In this document: positions 22,571 through 51,278 of the stretch, one piece after another
Position numbering within the stretch: the first letter of the stretch is position 1
How the letters are laid out: each line of letters begins with the position of its first letter
Program-made: the position numbers and the translations under genes
From: a virus
Length of the DNA stretch: 51,359 bases
Strand: one strand, 5' to 3'
IMG/VR virus record: IMGVR_UViG_3300049596_000773
Coordinates: 1-51,359 of that record
The notes under the pieces: model-generated
Told to the model about the DNA's origin: nothing
The model's input: only the letters and a program-made list of their open reading frames with translations
Databases searched by the model: none

Positions 22571-22745
22571 AAATAACGGTGAATCGAAGTGGGCGTGGAT
22601 GATGAGATGGTGCCGGGAGAAAGGCGTGTCGCCAGCCAACGCAGCCATGTGGGAACTGGCTGAGAAACGGTGGATCGAAGCTAATTCGCCGAACGTCTCA
22701 AGCTCAGCGGCGACGCCGGGCGAAAGGAGCACCGATGTCCGCTGA
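22512..22745 (+). CDS. Small hypothetical cassette protein
   Basis: This is a 77-aa protein whose first 20 codons are the right half of attC-like site D and whose last 20 are the left half of the next site. The middle (KWAWMMRWCREKGVSPANAA, then MWELAEKRWIEAN) is helical and Trp-rich and is probably the real domain. I recognise no family. The unit is a complete cassette, since its flanking boxes GTTCGGC and GCCGAAC are complementary. Confidence 0.5.
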   Translation: MKNTTDSKRGDSFAASPGSANNGESKWAWMMRWCREKGVSPANAAMWELAEKRWIEANSPNVSSSAATPGERSTDVR

Positions 22746-22787
22746 CCTCCCAAGCCCGGAGTCGTCCGCTGGAGCGCGTGGTTATAC
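22688..22787 (+). repeat. attC-like site E
   Basis: The left box is GCCGAAC (22688-22694) and the right box GTTATAC (22781-22787). The arms AGCTCAGCGGCGAC (22701-22714) and GTCGTCCGCTGGAGC (22761-22775) pair perfectly apart from an unpaired T and an unpaired G. The loop contains GAAAGGAG and ATG 22735, the ribosome site and start of the methyltransferase gene. Confidence 0.8.
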
Positions 22788-23553
22788 CCCGTTGGACGTG
22801 AGCGCCGCGTCGAATCGGGAATTGGAGTGGGAGGCAGGTGCGGAGCTTCGTCCCTACTACCATGCCGAAGGCATCACCATCTTTCACGGCGACTGCCGCG
22901 CGATACTGCCGCGCCTCAAAAAGCTCGACCTGCTCTGCACCGACCCTCCCTACGGAATCGGCTTCGCCGCGATGCCAACCAAGTGGCAGCGCCGCGCCGG
23001 AAAGCAGGCCGAAGCGTGGGACGATGACAGCGCCGAGGAATGGCTGATCGGCATGGCTCGCTCAAAAGCCGAGCGGCAAATCATCTGGGGCGGCAACTAC
23101 TACGACCTCCCGCGCGCCCGGTGCCTGCTCTCGTGGTATAAGCCGGACGCGCCGCCGAGCATGGGCAACGTGGAATACGCCTGGACGAACCTGAACCAAA
23201 ACTCCCGGCAAATCTCGCACTCGATAAGCGCCACGAACGCGGAGCGGCTGGGGCACCCAACGCAAAAGCCGCTGCGCGTGATGCTCTGGACGCTCGGCCA
23301 AGTGAGCGAGGTAAAGAGCGTGCTCGACCCGTGGATGGGAAGCGGGACCACGCTGCGCGCCGCGAAAGACTTGGGACTTCGCGCCATCGGAATTGAGCGC
23401 GAGGAAAAATACTGCGCTATGGCTGTCGAACGACTCGCGCAAAGTGTTCTGTCTTTGGGGGCGGGGGTTGGAGAGTGCGACGCGAACGGCAGTGCGGAAA
23501 AGGGGTATAACGAAAAAGCTGAGCCGCACGCTGGGCTAGGAGGGCCATCGTGA
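22735..23553 (+). CDS. DNA methyltransferase 1 (beta-class N6-A/N4-C type)
   Basis: This 272-aa enzyme should transfer a methyl group from AdoMet to adenine N6 or cytosine N4 in DNA. The catalytic motif DPPY lies at 70-73 and the AdoMet motif I, DPWMGSGTT, at 198-206, so the order is that of the beta class. KSVLDP and GIEREEKYCAMAVERL around motif I also fit the family. ATG 22735 has a strong AAAGGAG in the loop of attC-like site E. The first 18 residues are then attC-encoded, and a start at GTG 22798 cannot be excluded. No restriction enzyme lies nearby, so self-protection of phage DNA is likely. Confidence 0.85.
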   Translation: MSADLPSPESSAGARGYTPLDVSAASNRELEWEAGAELRPYYHAEGITIFHGDCRAILPRLKKLDLLCTDPPYGIGFAAMPTKWQRRAGKQAEAWDDDSAEEWLIGMARSKAERQIIWGGNYYDLPRARCLLSWYKPDAPPSMGNVEYAWTNLNQNSRQISHSISATNAERLGHPTQKPLRVMLWTLGQVSEVKSVLDPWMGSGTTLRAAKDLGLRAIGIEREEKYCAMAVERLAQSVLSLGAGVGECDANGSAEKGYNEKAEPHAGLGGPS

Positions 23554-30457: not shown

Positions 30458-30759
30458 CCGACGACCTGTTCACTCTCGCAGCCCGCTACCCGTCCGCGCC
30501 GGGACACCGCGACACGGACACCAGCCGCGAGGCCGCGAAGGACATGGCCAGCCGCGTCACAGGGCTGCGCTTGGCGGTCCTTGGCGCGCTGGCGCAGGAC
30601 CGGACAGCGGACGAGTGCGCCGCCGTGCTTGGCGAGTCTGTGCTCGCTGTCAGGCCGCGTACTACGGAGCTAAAGCGGCTCGGCCTTATCACCGACACGG
30701 GCGAGCGCCGGCCAAACGCGAGCGGGAAACGGGCGATTGTTTGGAGGCTGACCCTATGA
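30454..30759 (+). CDS. Winged-helix-like DNA-binding protein
   Basis: The 101-aa product has the pattern of a small phage HTH protein: HRDTDTSREAAKDM, then LRLAVLGALAQDRTADECAA, a recognition-helix-like RPRTTELKRLGLI, and a wing ending RRPNASGKRAIVWRL. It probably binds DNA as a regulator of early genes. Its last 48 bases recur exactly at 32068, where a remnant copy lies. It overlaps the PAPS-reductase-like gene by ATGA. Confidence 0.65.
   Translation: MTDDLFTLAARYPSAPGHRDTDTSREAAKDMASRVTGLRLAVLGALAQDRTADECAAVLGESVLAVRPRTTELKRLGLITDTGERRPNASGKRAIVWRLTL
30700..30747 (+). repeat. 48-bp direct repeat, copy 1
   Basis: The 48 bases are identical to 32068-32115. They encode the wing and C-terminus (GERRPNASGKRAIVWR) of the winged-helix protein. 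Confidence 0.9.
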
Positions 30760-31712
30760 CAACCACTGAACGAACCGAATACGACGCCCTGTGCCTGCTC
30801 TGGCACGCTACGGAACCAATGACGGCGGCGCAGACCGCTCGAATGGACGAGCTGCACGCGATGACATTAAAAGCACCGCCAGTTTATCCACTTTCGGCTG
30901 AGCCAATTCACATAATCAGCCTTGGCGCAGGCGTGCAAAGCAGCACGATGGCGCTGATGGCCGCGCGCGGCGAGATTACGCCAATGCCGTCTTGTGCGAT
31001 CTTTGCCGATACGCAGGCGGAGCCGCAGAGCGTTTATCGCTGGCTTGACTGGCTGGAAAAGCAACTGCCGTTTCCAGTGCATCGGGTGACGGCTGGAGAC
31101 TTGGCTGAAACCTCAACGCGGGTGAGGGAATCGTCCAGAACGGAAGGAGCAAAATACCTTTCCCACCTTGTTCCTGCCTTCACTCTTTCCGCCACTGGCG
31201 AGCGCGGCACTTGGTTTCGGCAATGCACGGATAAGCACAAATTGACCCCGTTACGCAAGGCGATTGACCGCGAACGCGGAACGTCCCAGGCAATAGTTTG
31301 GATTGGAATTTCAAGTGATGAGGCGAGCCGAATGAAGCCAAGCAGAATCGCCGGAATCAGCCACATTTTCCCGCTGATTGACGGGGCGAAAACTTTCAGC
31401 CGCCGTCAATGTCTGGCGTGGATGCAGGAACGCGGTTTTCCGACGCCGCCGCGTTCAAGCTGCTCATTTTGCCCCTACCATTCAGACAACGAATGGCGGA
31501 GGTTGCGCGACACCGAGCCGGAGGCGTTCGCGGCGGCAGTCGTCTATGAAATGCGGATGCAGGAGGCGGCGGAAAAGATAGACCGTCTTGACTCAGTTCC
31601 ATACCTGCATAATTCGCGGGTGCCTTTGTTGGACGTTGATTTCTCCACCGATGAAGACCACGGCCAGCAAGTCATGTTTCAAAACGAGTGCGAGGGAATG
31701 TGTGGAGTATGA
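30756..31712 (+). CDS. PAPS-reductase-like adenine-nucleotide hydrolase-fold protein
   Basis: The 318-aa protein has the PP-loop fold. SLGAGVQSSTMALMAA near 52-67 is the P-loop-like start, IFADTQAEPQSVYRWLDWLE near 83-102 is the second landmark, and SCSFCPYHSDNEWR near 238 supplies two cysteines. It resembles phage proteins annotated as phosphoadenosine phosphosulfate reductase or DndC-like. Possible jobs are sulfur transfer to nucleic acid, nucleotide activation or sulfur supply. ATG 30756 overlaps the previous stop; the longer frame from 30615 is read-through. Confidence 0.75.
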   Translation: MTTTERTEYDALCLLWHATEPMTAAQTARMDELHAMTLKAPPVYPLSAEPIHIISLGAGVQSSTMALMAARGEITPMPSCAIFADTQAEPQSVYRWLDWLEKQLPFPVHRVTAGDLAETSTRVRESSRTEGAKYLSHLVPAFTLSATGERGTWFRQCTDKHKLTPLRKAIDRERGTSQAIVWIGISSDEASRMKPSRIAGISHIFPLIDGAKTFSRRQCLAWMQERGFPTPPRSSCSFCPYHSDNEWRRLRDTEPEAFAAAVVYEMRMQEAAEKIDRLDSVPYLHNSRVPLLDVDFSTDEDHGQQVMFQNECEGMCGV

Positions 31713-33057: not shown

Positions 33058-34002
33058 ATGGAACACGACTCCACTGAAACCAGCCGCGCCCGCCTCGAAG
33101 CCGAAGTCGAAGCGTTCAAGACCCGACAAGCCGAAGCTGACGCTCTGCTAGCAGAGCGCGCAACCTCACGCGACAGCCGACGCAGAGACAGCCTTATCGG
33201 ACTCGACAACGTGGTGGAAATCGGTTCTTTGATGCCGGAAATTGTTGGCGTTTTCGAGCGGACAGCGAAAAGGGCTGCGGAGTTTCGGGACTCTTTGCGT
33301 CCCATGTTTTCCGATCTTCGACCGAAACCTTGCCGACATCATCCGCTAGTCATGCGGGAACCGGCATGGGACGAGACGATTGCCCGCTCACGCGACAGCG
33401 GAACATTTACGCCAGCCTTTGCGCCGTGCTGTGAGTGTCGGGACGAAAAGACCAGCGAAGCGCGCCGAGCGTTTTGGCGTAGGCGCGGAGTGGAGGAACG
33501 GAACATTGACGCTAGCCTAGACAACTTTTTTCCGCTCGGTGATGCCAAAAAGACCGCTGTTCTCGAAAAGGTCTGCGCGTGGCAGGCCAAAGGAACGGGC
33601 TTTCTGCTGCTCTACGGTTCTCCGGGGACCGGAAAGGGACATCTCGCAACCGGATGCCTTAAAGCACACGGTGCCGGACTTTTTGTGAAGCAAGCGGACA
33701 TGCTGCGCGACCTGCGCGACAGCTACGCAACCAATTCGACCACGGCATGCGTGTCGGCATGGCAGGATGCCGGGCTGCTGGTAGTGGACGAGTTCGGACT
33801 CAGCGGCGGAGGGAAGGACGAGGAGCCGATGCTTTACCAAGTTCTCGCGCACCGATACGACCACCGCCGGCCAACCGTCATTACAGCAAACCTGAATCTG
33901 GACGAGCTAAAGGCGCGGCTTGGCGAACGGCTGGTTGACCGCATCCGCGAGGACTGCACACACGCCCCGATGACGTGGGAAAGCTACAGGAGGTCCGCAT
34001 GA
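33058..34002 (+). CDS. DnaC-like helicase-loader ATPase
   Basis: The 314-aa AAA+ protein has Walker A GSPGTGKG at 187-194 and Walker B LLVVDEFG around 240-247, followed by TVITANLNLDELKARLGERL and DRI, the sensor and arginine-finger region of DnaC/IstB-type loaders. The N-terminal third holds a coiled coil and a cysteine pair (APCCECRDEK). It probably loads the host DnaB helicase at the phage origin together with the initiator at 32259. The phage has no polymerase or helicase of its own, so it depends on host replication enzymes. Confidence 0.85.
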   Translation: MEHDSTETSRARLEAEVEAFKTRQAEADALLAERATSRDSRRRDSLIGLDNVVEIGSLMPEIVGVFERTAKRAAEFRDSLRPMFSDLRPKPCRHHPLVMREPAWDETIARSRDSGTFTPAFAPCCECRDEKTSEARRAFWRRRGVEERNIDASLDNFFPLGDAKKTAVLEKVCAWQAKGTGFLLLYGSPGTGKGHLATGCLKAHGAGLFVKQADMLRDLRDSYATNSTTACVSAWQDAGLLVVDEFGLSGGGKDEEPMLYQVLAHRYDHRRPTVITANLNLDELKARLGERLVDRIREDCTHAPMTWESYRRSA

Positions 34003-43340: not shown

Positions 43341-43537
43341 ATCTCCATCGTGGTCGCGCCGCCCTTCTCGTTCATCAGGTAGATGTCGATGCCGTAGAGT
43401 GAAGTGTCGTCCTTGTAGGCGTAGTAGCCCTTGAAGTCGATCTGGTTGAACGTAAACATCACGTATCCGTCCACATAGACCTTGACCCGCCCGTTGAAGA
43501 TTTTGAAGTCGTAGGTGAATTGAGGCTTGGCTGGCAT
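43280..43537 (-). CDS. Small leftward hypothetical protein (moron-like)
   Basis: The 85-aa protein reads as an all-beta fold: FTYDFKIFNGRVKVYVDGYV, then FKGYYAYKDDTSLYGIDIYL and TTMEIYFKTRENWLGVLRLL. It lies alone on the minus strand, overlaps the end of the rightward gene by 61 bases, and is flanked by a strong hairpin upstream (43548-43579). That is the look of a single-gene insertion with its own signals. Confidence 0.6.
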   Translation of the reverse strand: MPAKPQFTYDFKIFNGRVKVYVDGYVMFTFNQIDFKGYYAYKDDTSLYGIDIYLMNEKGGATTMEIYFKTRENWLGVLRLLDEKL

Positions 43538-43547
43538 ATCCCCAACT

Positions 43548-43579
43548 CTCCCCTTGACTTTGCCTTTAGTCAAGGGGAG
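43548..43579. promoter_or_regulatory. Perfect 12-bp hairpin between divergent small genes
   Basis: CTCCCCTTGACT (43548-43559) and AGTCAAGGGGAG (43568-43579) pair perfectly around an 8-base loop. The arms contain TTGACT on both strands. It lies between the leftward start at 43537 and the rightward start at 43589, so it may be a two-way operator/promoter. GGGGAG is also a ribosome-site-like stretch for the rightward gene. Confidence 0.55.
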
Positions 43580-43588
43580 GTTCGGGCC

Positions 43589-43813
43589 ATGAGCTACGCA
43601 AGAACTGCCAGTCTGCACAGGAATGGCGAAAAATTAGCTGTGCTGGTCGAAGTGGGGGTCCGAGACGAACGCCGCCTGCAAGTCCTGCTGGCTGAAACGC
43701 TCACCGCAATGGCTTCGCTGGAACGGGACGTGGAGAGCATGAGCGATGAGGCTGTCGCCGTGTATCTGGAGCAACGAGCGAGTCAGCATGTGACAATCAC
43801 CCCAAATCCATGA
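43589..43813 (+). CDS. Small hypothetical protein
   Basis: The 74-aa product begins MSYARTASLHRNGEKLAVLV and has a helical, acidic second half (LERDVESMSDEAVAVYLEQR). It overlaps the next gene by ATGA. No family is recognised. Confidence 0.45.
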   Translation: MSYARTASLHRNGEKLAVLVEVGVRDERRLQVLLAETLTAMASLERDVESMSDEAVAVYLEQRASQHVTITPNP

Positions 43814-44022
43814 CTTCATCACCACTTCCCACCCAAGCCCCCGCCAAGCGCGCCTGGACGCCCCGCCTGAGCGTCGCAGCGCGGTCCCTGACCGTTGGCA
43901 TGTATCTGGACTGCGCTGACCGTGCCGAGGCGCTGTGCGTGCAGGCGTATTGGCGCAATCGTGGTGGCGACACGCGGCGGATGACTGGACCGGACTTTGT
44001 GCGCGTTTGGAGGCTGGCTTGA
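43810..44022 (+). CDS. Small hypothetical protein
   Basis: This 70-aa basic protein has a Pro/Ala linker start and a compact helical core (YLDCADRAEALCVQAYWRNR, then RRMTGPDFVRVWRL). Its layout suggests a small DNA- or RNA-binding module, without firm evidence. Confidence 0.45.
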   Translation: MTSSPLPTQAPAKRAWTPRLSVAARSLTVGMYLDCADRAEALCVQAYWRNRGGDTRRMTGPDFVRVWRLA

Positions 44023-44039
44023 ACGGAATCAAATAGTTG

Positions 44040-44067
44040 TTGCGCGATTGTTTCGCGTGTGTTATAC
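44040..44067 (+). promoter_or_regulatory. Promoter with operator for the RHH gene
   Basis: TTGCGC (44040-44045) and TTATAC (44062-44067) are 16 bases apart. A perfect inverted repeat CGCGA-TTGTT-TCGCG (44043-44057) covers the spacer. The site ends ten bases before the ribbon-helix-helix gene, so autorepression is likely. Confidence 0.6.
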
Positions 44068-44076
44068 GTTTGTGCA

Positions 44077-44220
44077 ATGAAGAAATTCACTGCCAGTATC
44101 AACACCCGCGTCACTCCGGCGACGCGGGATAACCTCAAGAAAAAAGCGCAACAGCGCAAAATCCGCCTGACCGACATCGCCCGCGAAGCTTTGGAGGAAA
44201 AGGCAAAATCTGACCTATGA
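44077..44220 (+). CDS. Ribbon-helix-helix regulator-like protein
   Basis: This 47-aa protein reads KFTASINTRVTPATRDNLKK, then KIRLTDIAREALEEKAK, the strand-helix-helix pattern of the CopG/Arc family. It follows a promoter whose spacer is a palindrome and overlaps the next gene by ATGA. It probably controls its own operon, including the conserved protein at 44217 and the structured array behind it. Confidence 0.7.
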   Translation: MKKFTASINTRVTPATRDNLKKKAQQRKIRLTDIAREALEEKAKSDL

Positions 44221-44825
44221 AATCCATCACTACAACGTGGACGGGCATCCGTCCGCTCATCATGTCGAATCCGCAGACCGTGGAAATCGCCAATCCGTTC
44301 GCGGTCAATTCGCGGCGAATCAACAACCTCCTGAAAGCCGCGCGCAAGAAGGGCGACGAAAACCGCATGGCGGAACTTGCCGACGAACAAAAGCGCGGCG
44401 ATTGGGAGGCAAGTGCCTATTGGGACACGAAAGAAAAACGCTTCTTCATTCCTGACACCTGCCTTCTAGCTTGCATCCGCAACGGAGCGGCGGCGGCAAA
44501 GAAGGGCAAGGACATCGACCGCGCCGTGATTATCACGGAAACGGAGGCGATCATCGAAACGGAAATCAAGCACAACAGCCTCGACGCCTACTATGCTGAT
44601 GACGCCTTCCGGCTGGAGTGCCCGGCAAAGGTTCCGCCCAAGACCGGCGCGCTGATATGGAAAGTGCGCTGCATGATGCCGACTGGATGGAAACTCAGCT
44701 TTGGCATCGAGTTTGACGAGAATATCGTCGCCGAGAAGTCGCTCCGCGAGGCGCTGGAATTGGCTGGGCGTCTCAGCGGAATCGGCGGATGGCGTCCCAA
44801 GTTTGGACGATTTTTAGTGAGCTAG
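44217..44825 (+). CDS. Conserved phage protein with GxGxWRPxxGRF ending (RAMP-like fold suspected)
   Basis: The 202-aa product belongs to a phage family I recognise by an N-terminal WTGIRPLIMSNP (PLLMHN-like) and a C-terminal GIGGWRPKFGRFLVS, with FIPDTCLLACIRNGAAAAKK between. The Gly-rich ending and domain outline recall RAMP/Cas7-type RNA-binding folds, but this is an impression and no such function is proven. It sits directly before the array of four structured units and may be their partner. Regulation is probably by the RHH protein just upstream, with which it overlaps by ATGA. Confidence 0.5.
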   Translation: MKSITTTWTGIRPLIMSNPQTVEIANPFAVNSRRINNLLKAARKKGDENRMAELADEQKRGDWEASAYWDTKEKRFFIPDTCLLACIRNGAAAAKKGKDIDRAVIITETEAIIETEIKHNSLDAYYADDAFRLECPAKVPPKTGALIWKVRCMMPTGWKLSFGIEFDENIVAEKSLREALELAGRLSGIGGWRPKFGRFLVS

Positions 44826-44860
44826 GCGAGGTCGGGTTATGCGACGCCTTGCAATGACTG

Positions 44861-44903
44861 GCCGCACACACCGCGCACGGGAAACCGTGGGCGGCAGTGC
44901 GGC
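44861..44903 (+). repeat. Structured unit 1
   Basis: The outer stem is GCCGCAC/GTGCGGC (7 bp). The inner hairpin CCGCGCACGG-GAAA-CCGTGGGCGG has a GNRA tetraloop and one G-G mismatch. The internal loop is ACA/CA. Confidence 0.8.
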
Positions 44904-44951
44904 GTGTCATGGAACGGCATGGCGTGGTCAGGCGAAGCGAAGCGGTGACGG

Positions 44952-44990
44952 GTCCACACACCGCGCTCTTTCGGGAGCGCGGCAGTGGGC
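44952..44990 (+). repeat. Structured unit 2
   Basis: The outer stem is GTCCAC/GTGGGC. The inner hairpin CCGCGCTC / GAGCGCGG is closed by a TTTCGG loop. The internal loop is again ACA/CA. Confidence 0.8.
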
Positions 44991-45038
44991 GCGGCGCAGT
45001 GGCGCAAGGTGTTGCGTTGCAGCGCATGGCAGCGCGCG

Positions 45039-45079
45039 GCCTCTCACACCGCATCCGTTCGCGGGTGCGGCAGAGAGGC
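45039..45079 (+). repeat. Structured unit 3
   Basis: The outer stem is GCCTCTC/GAGAGGC. The inner hairpin CCGCATCCG-TTCG-CGGGTGCGG has nine pairs (one G-T) and a UUCG tetraloop. The internal loop is ACA/CA. Confidence 0.8.
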
Positions 45080-45131
45080 GCGGATTGGCGCTGCTAGGCT
45101 GGGCGACACATGGCATGCCCCGGCGCGGCGA

Positions 45132-45170
45132 GGCAAACACACAGCGGCTCACGGGCCGTTGCAGTTTGCC
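45132..45170 (+). repeat. Structured unit 4
   Basis: The outer stem is GGCAAAC/GTTTGCC. The inner hairpin CAGCGGC/GCCGTTG has one G-T pair and a 6-base loop. The internal loop is ACA/CA. The next bases (TTGCGCCAATGGGTTAGGCG) look like the right end of the attC-like sites elsewhere in this genome. Confidence 0.75.
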
Positions 45171-45221
45171 TTGCGCCAATGGGTTAGGCGATGCTGAGCC
45201 ATGACTGGCAATGCACAATCA

Positions 45222-45244
45222 CCCACCTGAGACGTGGGCAGTTT
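45222..45244 (+). terminator. Small hairpin before the next gene
   Basis: CCCAC-CTGAGAC-GTGGG (45222-45238) is followed by CAGTTTT and then the ATG at 45246. It may end the array RNA or regulate translation of the next gene. The stem is only five pairs. Confidence 0.4.
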
Positions 45245-45245
45245 T

Positions 45246-45713
45246 ATGACAACAGAACCAAACCAAGACAGTTCAGGCGATGCCGTCAGGCTTCCGCTCT
45301 GGAAAAACGCCCTCGACAAAATGCGCGCAACCGGCATCGGCTACGGGGAAGTATTCGACGCCAAGTTCTTCGAGGATGAACTCCGCACCAAACGCGACTC
45401 AATGCAGTTCGGACTCGGCATGTCGGCCATTCGCCGCGAACTGGAAAAGGACGGTTACTACATCACTGGACGCGGACAGAAGGGCAACCAGTTCGTGATC
45501 GTGCCGCCTGAGTCTAACGCTGACGTGATGGGTGGCTACGCCCGGCAGGCGCTAGATTCGCTGAGTCGAGGCTTCATCCTTGGAACCAGCACGCGACTGG
45601 ACACGCTCTCCAAGCGCGACCGCGACCGCCACGAATCGCTGCTGGCAAAAATGGCCACACGATTGGCGTTGCTGAAACTTCCAATTGGAGAAGCGAGAAA
45701 GTTGCTAAAATGA
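45246..45713 (+). CDS. Hypothetical protein downstream of the structured array
   Basis: The 155-aa protein has FEDELRTKRDSMQFGLGMSA, then IRRELEKDGYYITGRGQKGN and FVIVPP, a helix-rich start followed by a strand pair like a winged helix. The C-terminal half is a long helix pair (SKRDRDRHESLLAKMATRLA). I recognise no family by name. Its start lies just after the hairpin at 45222, so its translation could depend on the array RNA. An earlier ATG (45234) lies in the hairpin and is less likely. Confidence 0.6.
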   Translation: MTTEPNQDSSGDAVRLPLWKNALDKMRATGIGYGEVFDAKFFEDELRTKRDSMQFGLGMSAIRRELEKDGYYITGRGQKGNQFVIVPPESNADVMGGYARQALDSLSRGFILGTSTRLDTLSKRDRDRHESLLAKMATRLALLKLPIGEARKLLK

Positions 45714-45853
45714 AGCCCCCGCCCATCACCTGCACCCTCTGCGGCGCGCTGGCTCGCCGACATCTGAACCTGTGGCAGTGCCGCCGGAATCCGCGCCACA
45801 TTGCGGACCTGTTGCGCCGGGTCTGGTTCGTGTGCGGAGAGAATGGGAACTAA
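45710..45853 (+). CDS. Small zinc-ribbon-like protein
   Basis: This 47-aa protein has CTLCGALARRHLNLWQCRRN, with C-x-x-C and a later Cys, and a basic C-terminus (DLLRRVWFVCGENGN). It is in an ATGA overlap with the gene before and is the last rightward gene before the convergent late operon. Confidence 0.5.
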   Translation: MKPPPITCTLCGALARRHLNLWQCRRNPRHIADLLRRVWFVCGENGN

Positions 45854-46584
45854 AGCTCCACCGGGAGCAGCGGCTTGGCGCGGGCGGCGAGTTTCAGCCG
45901 CCAGTAGTTTGCAGCGGTGGCGAACTGCTCGGCTGGAGTCACGCCACGGTTCGTCTCGTGCGCGGAAATGTGCGCGTCGCCGATGCGGTCCCAATGGTAG
46001 CTAGGCTGTCCATCGAAGTCGCGGCGGTCGAAATATGAGTTCCCTGCAATCCACAGGTCCGACCCCACCACCACGTCCGGCGTGAACAGCTTAAAGCACA
46101 GGTCCACTTCGGCGGGAGTCAGTGTCTCGAAAAGCGTAACTTGCCATCCGTGGTAGCTGATCTTCTTGGTGTGATCTGCGTAATGCGCCGTGTAGTTCTG
46201 ACCGCACACGGACAGCGGAAACTCGTTGCGCTCGTTGACGCGATTCCAAGCCGCGACCATTTGCGTGATGTGCTGCGGGTCAATCCAATCGTCGTCATCG
46301 AGGATCGTCCAGCAATCCGTCCGCACCATTTTCAGGTTGGCGACGTGTTGATAGACCGGGCGCAGGTAGGTGTCCTCGTCGTTGACGACTTCGGTGCGGA
46401 GCCGGTGCGAGTCCGGGACGTTGAGCAATCGGAGCGGCGTCGGATGGCGGTTGATGATGAGCAGACGCGCCAACGGGTAATCCTGCGCCATGAACGAGCG
46501 GATGGCGCGAGCAATCTTGTCGGGGTGCCCTCCCACGGTTTCCATGATGACGGTGACGGTCGGGTTCTGGACGTGTGTTCTCAT
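45850..46584 (-). CDS. Family-2-type glycosyltransferase
   Basis: The 244-aa enzyme has TVTVIMETVGGHPDKIARAI and SFMAQDYPLARLLIINRHP at the N-terminus, the nucleotide-sugar-binding start of GT2 enzymes. The acidic motif ILDDDDWID is at 94-102. An aromatic region follows (PSYHWDRIGDAHISAHETN). It is the last gene of the leftward late operon, behind a collagen-like fibre gene, so the simplest idea is that it glycosylates the collagen-like Thr residues of that fibre, as in some large viruses. ATG 46584 is chosen; the longer frame is antisense of the GPT repeats. Confidence 0.75.
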   Translation of the reverse strand: MRTHVQNPTVTVIMETVGGHPDKIARAIRSFMAQDYPLARLLIINRHPTPLRLLNVPDSHRLRTEVVNDEDTYLRPVYQHVANLKMVRTDCWTILDDDDWIDPQHITQMVAAWNRVNERNEFPLSVCGQNYTAHYADHTKKISYHGWQVTLFETLTPAEVDLCFKLFTPDVVVGSDLWIAGNSYFDRRDFDGQPSYHWDRIGDAHISAHETNRGVTPAEQFATAANYWRLKLAARAKPLLPVEL

Positions 46585-46586
46585 GG

Positions 46587-47345
46587 TTATGGTCCGCTGG
46601 GGCCGGTAGGCCCCGTGGGTCCCGTGGGTCCCGTTGGCCCCGTGGGTCCGGTAGGTCCGGTAGGGCCAGTCGGCCCCGTTGGGCCGGTTGGGCCTGTCCC
46701 CGCCGTCCACGCCCAGTTCGGCACAAGCCCCCAGATCAACTCTCCGCCGGACGTGGCTTTCCGAGCCTTTTGCAGATGGGTGGTGGTAAGCTGGTCGATG
46801 CGAAGGCTTGTTTTCAGGTCCGGGAAATCGCCGGGATCAGGAAACGGCGCGTCCGGCATACCATTGACCGTGCTCTTTCCGGTCTGGCAGGCGCGAACGT
46901 AGGCAATGGGTTGTCGCCAGACGTTGCTTACCCCGGCGTTGTTCGTGAACATCGAGTTGCCCATTGTTGCGCTCGGTCCCCACGTAAGAGTTGGGCCTGC
47001 GGTGATTGCTCCGGCGAAGCTAAACGTCATCTCCAGCCACACCCAATCCCCGCTCGTCAGGGTCATCCGGTTGTCGATGTTGGCGATGGCGGCGGTCTGT
47101 GTCAGGTCGGCTTCATCGAGGAAAATCCATCCGCGCCGCACGTAGGCGTAAGCGGTCGTCTCGGCATTGGACGTGAAGCCCGCGCCATACACCTCGAACG
47201 GGTGGAGCTTGAGCAGCGCCGGGATGCGGGTGAGAGAATCGGGGTTGCGCCCAGGATATTCGGACGCGCCTCCGGCATCCGGCTCCGGCAGTCCGGCTGG
47301 AATGACTTCCCGGATACGGGCCAGCGTGGCGTCAAGTTCTTCCAT
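46587..47345 (-). CDS. Collagen-like tail fibre protein
   Basis: The 252-aa product has an N-terminal globular part (residues 1-205, including DDxD-poor, Trp-rich [17 protein letters not shown]) and a C-terminal run of about 14 GPT triplets from about residue 210 to the end. Collagen-like Gly-Pro-Thr repeats form trimeric rods in phage fibres. It is unusual that the repeat is at the very C-terminus with no head domain after it. At the DNA level the repeat can slip, so length variation between isolates is likely. It overlaps the structural gene upstream by one base. Confidence 0.8.
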
Positions 47346-49967: not shown

Positions 49968-51278
49968 ATGGCTGCACTTGACGAAAAACCAATTAGCGCA
50001 AGGTCTGGGCGTTCCGCCTACTACGGAGGAGGCGCTAGTTCCGCTGGTGGCGACATGACGGATTACCAGCGGCAATCCTTGGAGATGCGGCAGGCTGCGA
50101 CCAGCAGCAATGAGGCTTTTCGGCAGGCTGAAGCAATGCGAAGGGCAGAGGAAGCGGCGCAAAAATCCACCACCGCAGACTCACGTTTCCGCGACACGAT
50201 GAACTACAGGCGTGGAACACAAGCCGCCGCAGAATCGCGTTTTCGTGACACTATGGACTACCGGCGTAGTGCACAGGCCGGGGTGCAATCGCGCTTCGAT
50301 CAAGCACAGGCGCTTCGCGAAGAAATGGAGGCGCGTCGGCAGGAAAACGATGAGCGAACCGCACTGCAATCCGCCCGCAGACTCAAGCTGGACGTGGATA
50401 AGGATGCGCGCGCCATTGAGTTTGAGGAAAAGAAATTCCAAAACGTCGAAGGCTTCGACAGGGAGGTTTCGCAGATTGAGGCAATGTGGGGCGACGATCC
50501 GGTGAGGGTTGCCGCAATGACTGTTTCCGCAGCGCGAAAGTTTCCGCTTGCCACAGAGGACAAAAGGACATTTTCCCAAGTCGAACACTCCCGCAAGTTG
50601 CTGGAAAAGTGGCAGGTCCATCCAAAGCTGCCTACGGCATTATGGGAGGCTAGCGAGTTTGATCCGCGCACGATGGGTGCTGCTGACGCAAGGCAGTATC
50701 TCGGAACGATTGCGGCCAAATATCCAGAGGTCGCAAACGATCCCACGCTGGCCGCGACGTTGAAGGCCAAGATGGAACAGGTGGATATGATCGAGTCCAG
50801 GGCAACAAAGGTTCCCGAAGGATTGGAGCCGTCCAGCGCCACCATTGGACCGGACGGAAAGGTTTCCAGAACGTATCGCGCCCAAAAGGAGGCAAAGGAC
50901 ACCACGGCAAAAGCCACACAGGAAGCCTACAAAATGGCGGCTGACAATCTCGCCAAGGCACAGGACGACCGGAACGCCGCCGCCAAAGTGATGCAAGCCA
51001 TAAAGCTCAAGGTCACTACCAATAATCCGAACGCGGCACAGATAGCGGCAATTAGCGAAGCGCAGAGCGTCATCGACAAGCAGGACAAGATTGTTGAACG
51101 CTGGCAGAAACGCCTTGATAAGGAGGAGGCAGCATGGGACGAAAACAGGGGCGTGGCATCGCCAGTGCCGACCACCAAACCAATCGACGTTGACAGCGCA
51201 AAAGCTCTGCTGAAAGAAGCTGGTGGAGATAAAGAAAAGGCTCGCTCACTGGCGAAAGAACGCGGATTCCACTTCTGA
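49968..51278 (+). CDS. Coiled-coil internal virion-type protein
   Basis: The 436-aa protein begins with a Gly/Ser segment, then three copies of a short repeat (SRFRDTMNYRRGTQAAAESR type, residues 65-108), then long charged helices. The C-terminus is SAKALLKEAGGDKEKARSLA with KERGFHF. Its short repeats and length suit an ejected or core protein. The 3' end is inside the 127-bp overlap, so on the circle it is followed three bases later by the giant protein gene at 50. Confidence 0.6.
   Translation: MAALDEKPISARSGRSAYYGGGASSAGGDMTDYQRQSLEMRQAATSSNEAFRQAEAMRRAEEAAQKSTTADSRFRDTMNYRRGTQAAAESRFRDTMDYRRSAQAGVQSRFDQAQALREEMEARRQENDERTALQSARRLKLDVDKDARAIEFEEKKFQNVEGFDREVSQIEAMWGDDPVRVAAMTVSAARKFPLATEDKRTFSQVEHSRKLLEKWQVHPKLPTALWEASEFDPRTMGAADARQYLGTIAAKYPEVANDPTLAATLKAKMEQVDMIESRATKVPEGLEPSSATIGPDGKVSRTYRAQKEAKDTTAKATQEAYKMAADNLAKAQDDRNAAAKVMQAIKLKVTTNNPNAAQIAAISEAQSVIDKQDKIVERWQKRLDKEEAAWDENRGVASPVPTTKPIDVDSAKALLKEAGGDKEKARSLAKERGFHF

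Follow-up and report, generated by a model that had tools for sequence, protein, structure and literature searches.

A phage locus with a Vipr-family RAMP protein, NN-GGY guide tracts and structured RNA tails is probably a member of the VIPR systems

VIPR systems were reported in 2026, and phages are thought to use them to silence the genes of rival phages (PMC13142463). They are proposed as an ancestor of the CRISPR RAMPs. The preprint gives as their hallmark a vrRNA of NN-GGY pentanucleotides (9-16 tandem YNNGG repeats), while its experiments on the system of Escherichia phage SUSP1, a Felixounavirus whose system is classed there as type II, addressed RNP assembly, a 1-nt skip, DNA binding, repression and rival-phage targets (PMC13142463). 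Here we describe a locus in IMG/VR virus record IMGVR_UViG_3300049596_000773, of which positions 1 to 51,359 were analysed (this whole stretch of 51,359 nucleotides is called the window; related loci are labelled L002, L003 and so on), and compare it with the SUSP1-type region as it stands in phage wV8. The locus is very probably (about 0.93) a phage-borne VIPR system. This reading draws on protein family and fold, pentamer periodicity, a conserved RNA tail, gene-array co-occurrence and Vap1 homology; the five properties addressed in SUSP1 would carry over from the experiments on that phage (PMC13142463).

The locus opens with an RHH-like ORF which shares an ATGA overlap with the gene for a 202-aa protein, here named vipr; the array (44823-45241, ~390 nt of hairpin array) lies directly 3' of vipr and is followed by a gene for a helix-rich protein, here named vap (Table 1). 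The first-pass annotation had given this same order, and the ORFs confirmed it. The first repeat of tract A overlaps the vipr stop codon and the last tail ends 4 nt upstream of the vap ATG.

Table 1. Features predicted at the window locus, with T-arm elements seen at other VIPR loci
Feature	Position	Strand	Details
RHH-like ORF, possible regulator, accessory	44077..44220	+	47 aa; ORF call and weak NikA-like match
vipr gene, predicted RAMP-fold Vipr-family protein	44217..44825	+	202 aa; G-loop GIGGWRPKFGRF; phrog_4652, PDB 36pp, AF2, Csm3/Cmr4 fold
putative vrRNA guide tract A	44823..44862	+	NN = TA GA CG TA GA CT AA CT (CG)
tail hairpin 1	44863..44902	+	outer stem, ACA/CA internal loop, inner stem
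putative vrRNA guide tract B	44903..44953	+	NN = GT AT AC AT GT CA GA GA GG CG (CC)
tail hairpin 2	44954..44990	+	
putative vrRNA guide tract C	44991..45040	+	NN = GC GC GG AA GT GT AG AT AG GC (CT)
tail hairpin 3	45041..45077	+	
putative vrRNA guide tract D	45078..45134	+	NN = GC TT GC TA TG GA AT AT CC GC GA (AA)
tail hairpin 4	45135..45169	+	
putative vrRNA guide tract E	45170..45216	+	NN = CT GC TG TA GA TG CA CT AA (AC); frame re-read by eye
last tail	45217..45241	+	simple hairpin 45222-45238, then CAGTTTT
vap gene, predicted diverged Vap1-family partner	45246..45713	+	155 aa from ATG; helical, possible winged helix
T-arm elements (other loci)	L036 4455-4605 (reverse complement); L121 1509-1803; L137 5768-7383; L138 6702; L018 6384; L019 3801		

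Elsewhere in the window we noted an ORF ending in Gly-Pro-Thr collagen-like repeats (46587-47345, minus strand) with an adjoining ORF that is, by eye, a probable glycosyltransferase (45850-46710, minus strand), as well as a gene of the PAPS-reductase family (30615-31712, plus strand; phrog_424, E 7.5e-47), a DNA methyltransferase (22735-23553, plus strand), a DnaC-like helicase loader (33058-34002, plus strand) and two tandem copies of a 54-nt unit within an ORF (50173-50280).

The 202-aa protein matched phrog_4652 (E 1.8e-32), which also takes in all 69 of its relatives in A1, and PDB entry 36pp, "SUSP1 Vipr protein", the match through which the name Vipr was reached (E 8.8e-18 with the sequence and 6.5e-44 with the family profile). 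When an AlphaFold2 model made with 70 relatives as input (pLDDT 93.4) was searched with Foldseek, every match listed was a chain of a CRISPR RAMP complex, the best being Csm3 (E 3.7e-6; VIA-align Z 11), and the best solved-structure matches were Csm3/Cmr4 chains. G-loop residues were near-invariant across 70 sequences. None of Pfam, NCBIfam and PADLOC named the protein with confidence, and one member had weak Csm3 matches (E 0.02). Judged by sequence and predicted structure, the protein is a RAMP of the Vipr family, and so the RAMP-like fold which had been proposed from the outline of the protein and its ending (the C-terminus is indeed GIGGWRPKFGRFLVS) was recovered when its predicted structure was compared with Cas7/RAMP folds.

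Before and between the hairpins there are five tracts of 8-12 units each, all in one 5-nt frame, in which two variable letters are followed by GGY or a decayed form of it; the first-pass annotation had rightly seen a hairpin array, but that finding missed these tracts. GGY was in frame in 23 of the 48 units (mean 8.9 and maximum 15 in 2000 dinucleotide shuffles) and NGY in 39 of the 48 (null mean 19.3, maximum 27). Tract A had GGY in 4 of its 8 triplets and tract E, the most decayed, in 3 of 9. Among the close relatives strict GGY made up 29-83% of triplets, reaching 100% within single tracts, which can be wholly GGC, and hypervariable NN letters stood in fixed NN-GGY frames, most of them 8-12 units long within a range of about 8-19. 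The repeats of a vrRNA are thus recognisable in the window despite a strict GGY share of 48%, a value which suggests that some units may be decayed or may use a looser NGY motif. Rfam gave no credible match in the window array and none at the gathering threshold in 18 related loci.

This mixture of triplets could also be explained by a VIPR locus in decay, with gene and partner intact but with several guide units that have lost GGY and their function, and the higher GGY counts in L004 (69/83) and L003 (35/45), together with the degenerate first units found in all relatives, would agree with this. We nevertheless consider decay rather unlikely, since Vipr is 88-100% identical to its relatives with the G-loop intact, NGY is kept in frame well above the null expectation, and L002 and L005-L009 have the same NN letters in tract A although some triplets of the tract differ. 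Such retention of NN while triplets vary is what would be expected if NN holds information, with few changes seen.

The window array folded far better than its shuffles (z -6.1), into four stem-loops built alike and spaced 87-94 nt apart, plus the simpler fifth. The 20 distinct tails of the window clade had a common plan, in which a 4-bp outer stem leads through an internal loop of 3/2 nt (ACA/CA) to an inner stem of roughly 8-10 bp capped by a tetraloop. In their alignment 99.2% of cells were paired and 8 of 12 pairs had compensatory double changes, with none of 500 shuffles as high, and pairing fell to about 37-40% when the partner was slid by one column; as the structure was derived from the same sequences, this slide control is biased towards the structure, whereas the compensatory changes are independent of that bias. 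The common structure and its compensatory changes indicate that the hairpins are RNA tails, and these are under selection at the RNA level, so that the conserved, structured 3' tail of VIPR systems is present here.

The first-pass annotation had suggested a decoy, an anti-defence RNA or a packaging RNA, and a phage-encoded RAMP fold beside a hairpin array is what such an RNA bound by a RAMP protein, for instance a mimic of a CRISPR repeat, might look like; RNA-based anti-CRISPRs do exist. Hypervariable NN letters in fixed NN-GGY frames between the hairpins would however be needless for a repeat mimic, and the protein family includes the experimentally characterised Vipr. We regard this explanation as highly improbable and have replaced it, because the array is built like vrRNA guides, from NN-GGY tracts with a structured tail.

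The first-pass annotation had also suggested autoregulation. A proposal in which the RHH protein controls its own operon, and the array serves the gene after it as a leader or attenuator, would draw on the ATGA overlap and on the last window hairpin, which with its CAGTTTT scores as terminator-like and stands just before the vap start codon. A hairpin followed by CAG/AAG-TTT(T)/CTTT just before the vap ATG was present in 11 of 13 relatives (not in L010 and L011), and the nearness of the last tail to that codon means that Vipr binding there might affect translation of vap. The RHH ORF itself resembled NikA weakly, with a score under the Pfam cut-off. When the DNA ahead of vipr was compared in 11 relatives, 9 of them had a homologue of this ORF (82-100% identity); no RHH gene was found in the upstream DNA of L011 and L012, suggesting that it is not a core part of the system, and the overlap was not conserved among relatives. 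Moreover, arrays differ widely in length and in their number of units (3-8), and in other phages, such as wV8 and LittleE, vap comes straight after vipr without an intervening array, all of which makes an operon of this kind improbable.

The vap accessory gene that adjoins vipr in VIPR systems was present as well, a homologue lying directly 3' of the array in 13 of 13 close relatives. The profile of the window Vap family, from which wV8 gp94 and its kin had been left out, matched the family profile of wV8 gp94 (hhalign probability 94.4, E 8.4e-8), which belongs to phrog_5926 and sits in the position of SUSP1 vap1. Seven of 21 members of the window Vap family matched phrog_5926; the window Vap itself gave no direct match to it, and the link passes only through its relatives. 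Both phrog_4652 and phrog_5926 are labelled 'unknown function'. By profile comparison the downstream gene is a diverged relative of SUSP1 Vap1. Its model was mostly helical with a small beta wing, and Foldseek returned many MarR proteins with a best E of 0.075, so that the earlier description of a helix-rich protein held while its winged-helix likeness is weak.

The association of gene and array extends well beyond the window. In the 13 close IMG/VR relatives (Vipr 88-100% identical, one of them a 68-residue fragment at 91%) an array of 3-8 units followed vipr every time, with near-perfect GGY tracts in several. A scan of IMG/VR for (GGCNN)x7, using DNA only, gave at least 120 stretches, and a protein profile search found a Vipr relative in 83 of the 120 listed; the array was on the same strand as vipr in 82 of 84 comparisons, at a median distance of 97 nt, and no such arrays occurred in 27 unrelated control loci (247 kb). 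A genome scan for Vipr yielded only distant relatives (28-31% identity) in L144, L145 and L146, which are Clostridia or related contigs. Distant relatives in cultured phages (Felixounavirus, Listonella phage phiHSIC and Mycobacterium LittleE) also had pentamer tracts, of GGT in wV8 and GC-centred in phiHSIC, and none were seen beside the Vipr relative of Gordonia phage Trine in the stretches read. With arrays standing beside homologues in very diverged phages, the first-pass proposal that protein and RNA array form one system gained support.

Two observations from the same loci are recorded here. The other 37 of the 120 listed pattern loci (among them L016, L039, L044, L075, L091, L110 and L120) had NN-GGC runs, several of them long, with no recognised Vipr gene in the stretches examined; contig ends, chance, a diverged Vipr or orphan arrays are possible explanations. 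In some VIPR loci the element after the tract has a perfect tRNA T-arm (5-bp stem, TTCRANY loop; Table 1), stacked on an acceptor-like stem in L036 and L121. There were 12 T-arms in 45 kb of array and 24 in 1.63 Mb elsewhere, and ARAGORN named one such element tRNA-Pro. It is possible that tRNA-processing enzymes are used on these arrays; such T-arms are not mentioned in the main text of PMC13142463.

Like the SUSP1/wV8 system, the window locus combines a RAMP protein homologous to Vipr with tracts of NN-GGY (GGT-rich in wV8), structured tails and a Vap1-family partner. It differs in that its Vipr is ~30% identical, its GGY integrity is lower with many triplets NGY, its array lies between vipr and vap whereas SUSP1 arrays flank both, and an extra RHH gene leads the operon, as in most relatives. 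Its tail is a two-stem hairpin with an ACA/CA loop, as given by pseudoknot-free folding, where a pseudoknot is predicted for the SUSP1 clade (PMC13142463). With the Class 1 CRISPR RAMPs (Csm3/Cmr4, Cas7) the window Vipr shares an RRM-type fold and C-terminal G-loop, at ~13% identity and with an array period of 5 nt rather than 6 nt. Membership of Class 1 CRISPR-Cas was considered and rejected, as there were no identical direct repeats of more than 12 nt in 43500-46500 and no Cas matches among the scanned ORFs neighbouring vipr.

In a tree which included no reference sequences of other VIPR types, the window fell into a 34-row group with the SUSP1-type phage wV8 (97/96), and a Vap1-type partner was present in 26 of these 34 rows compared to 0 of 47 across the root. 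This grouping and partner distribution suggest that the window locus is likely type II-like. Taking this together with the Vipr match, the NN-GGY tracts, the RNA tails and the Vap1 relative, we place the locus among the VIPR systems as a new member, on the type II-like side with SUSP1.

If the window system works as that of SUSP1, Vipr subunits would coat the array transcripts, one per NN-GGY pentamer, holding GGY and leaving the NN pairs exposed as a spaced code. The complex would then bind double-stranded DNA matching NN-x-NN-x (the 1-nt skip) and block transcription there, a Vap1-like DNA-binding partner may help repression, and the hairpins of fixed architecture would close each guide tract as 3' tails, probably marking its processing. 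Exact matches in IMG/VR were found for none of guides D (20 letters), B (18) and A (18), and no self-target of guides A-E was found within the window. Guide C had five IMG/VR matches, all of one sequence family and mismatched at both end units, which were treated as chance. With the 16-letter cores of D and B, most hits fell for each core in a single coding motif that recurred, and the units on either side of these hits agreed no better than by chance; we take the D-core motif to resemble anaerobic ribonucleotide reductase and the B-core motif to resemble phage tail-type proteins. Against ~1.5 Mb of loci, which may contain no targets, a 1-nt skip had no advantage over other skips or over shuffled guides. 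As no convincing DNA target emerged in IMG/VR (A-D), in the window (A-E) or in related loci, the mechanism rests on homology to the system tested in the preprint. Should the preprint's code hold, a 1-nt skip would read tract B as V-I-T-I-V-[HQ]-[DE]-[DE]-G-R-P, tract C as A-A-G-[KN]-V-V-[SR]-[IM]-[SR]-A-L and tract D as A-[FL]-A-Y-[CW]-[DE]-[IM]-[IM]-P-A-[DE]-[KN], readings in which TA and TG could also start stop codons and which would agree with targets in coding DNA.

We tentatively entertain, at somewhat less than even odds, a distinct VIPR sub-branch, RHH-led and with two-stem-tail arrays between vipr and vap, in which NGY is tolerated, the first guide is kept for a standing target and later units turn over. 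The IMG/VR scan shows that the DNA pattern alone can find vipr gene and array together. The window locus and its relatives would add to VIPR a lineage that has another kind of RNA tail and in which intact and degenerate guide motifs are mixed; such a lineage may help in studying the extent to which GGY is required, the processing of arrays and the turnover of guides.
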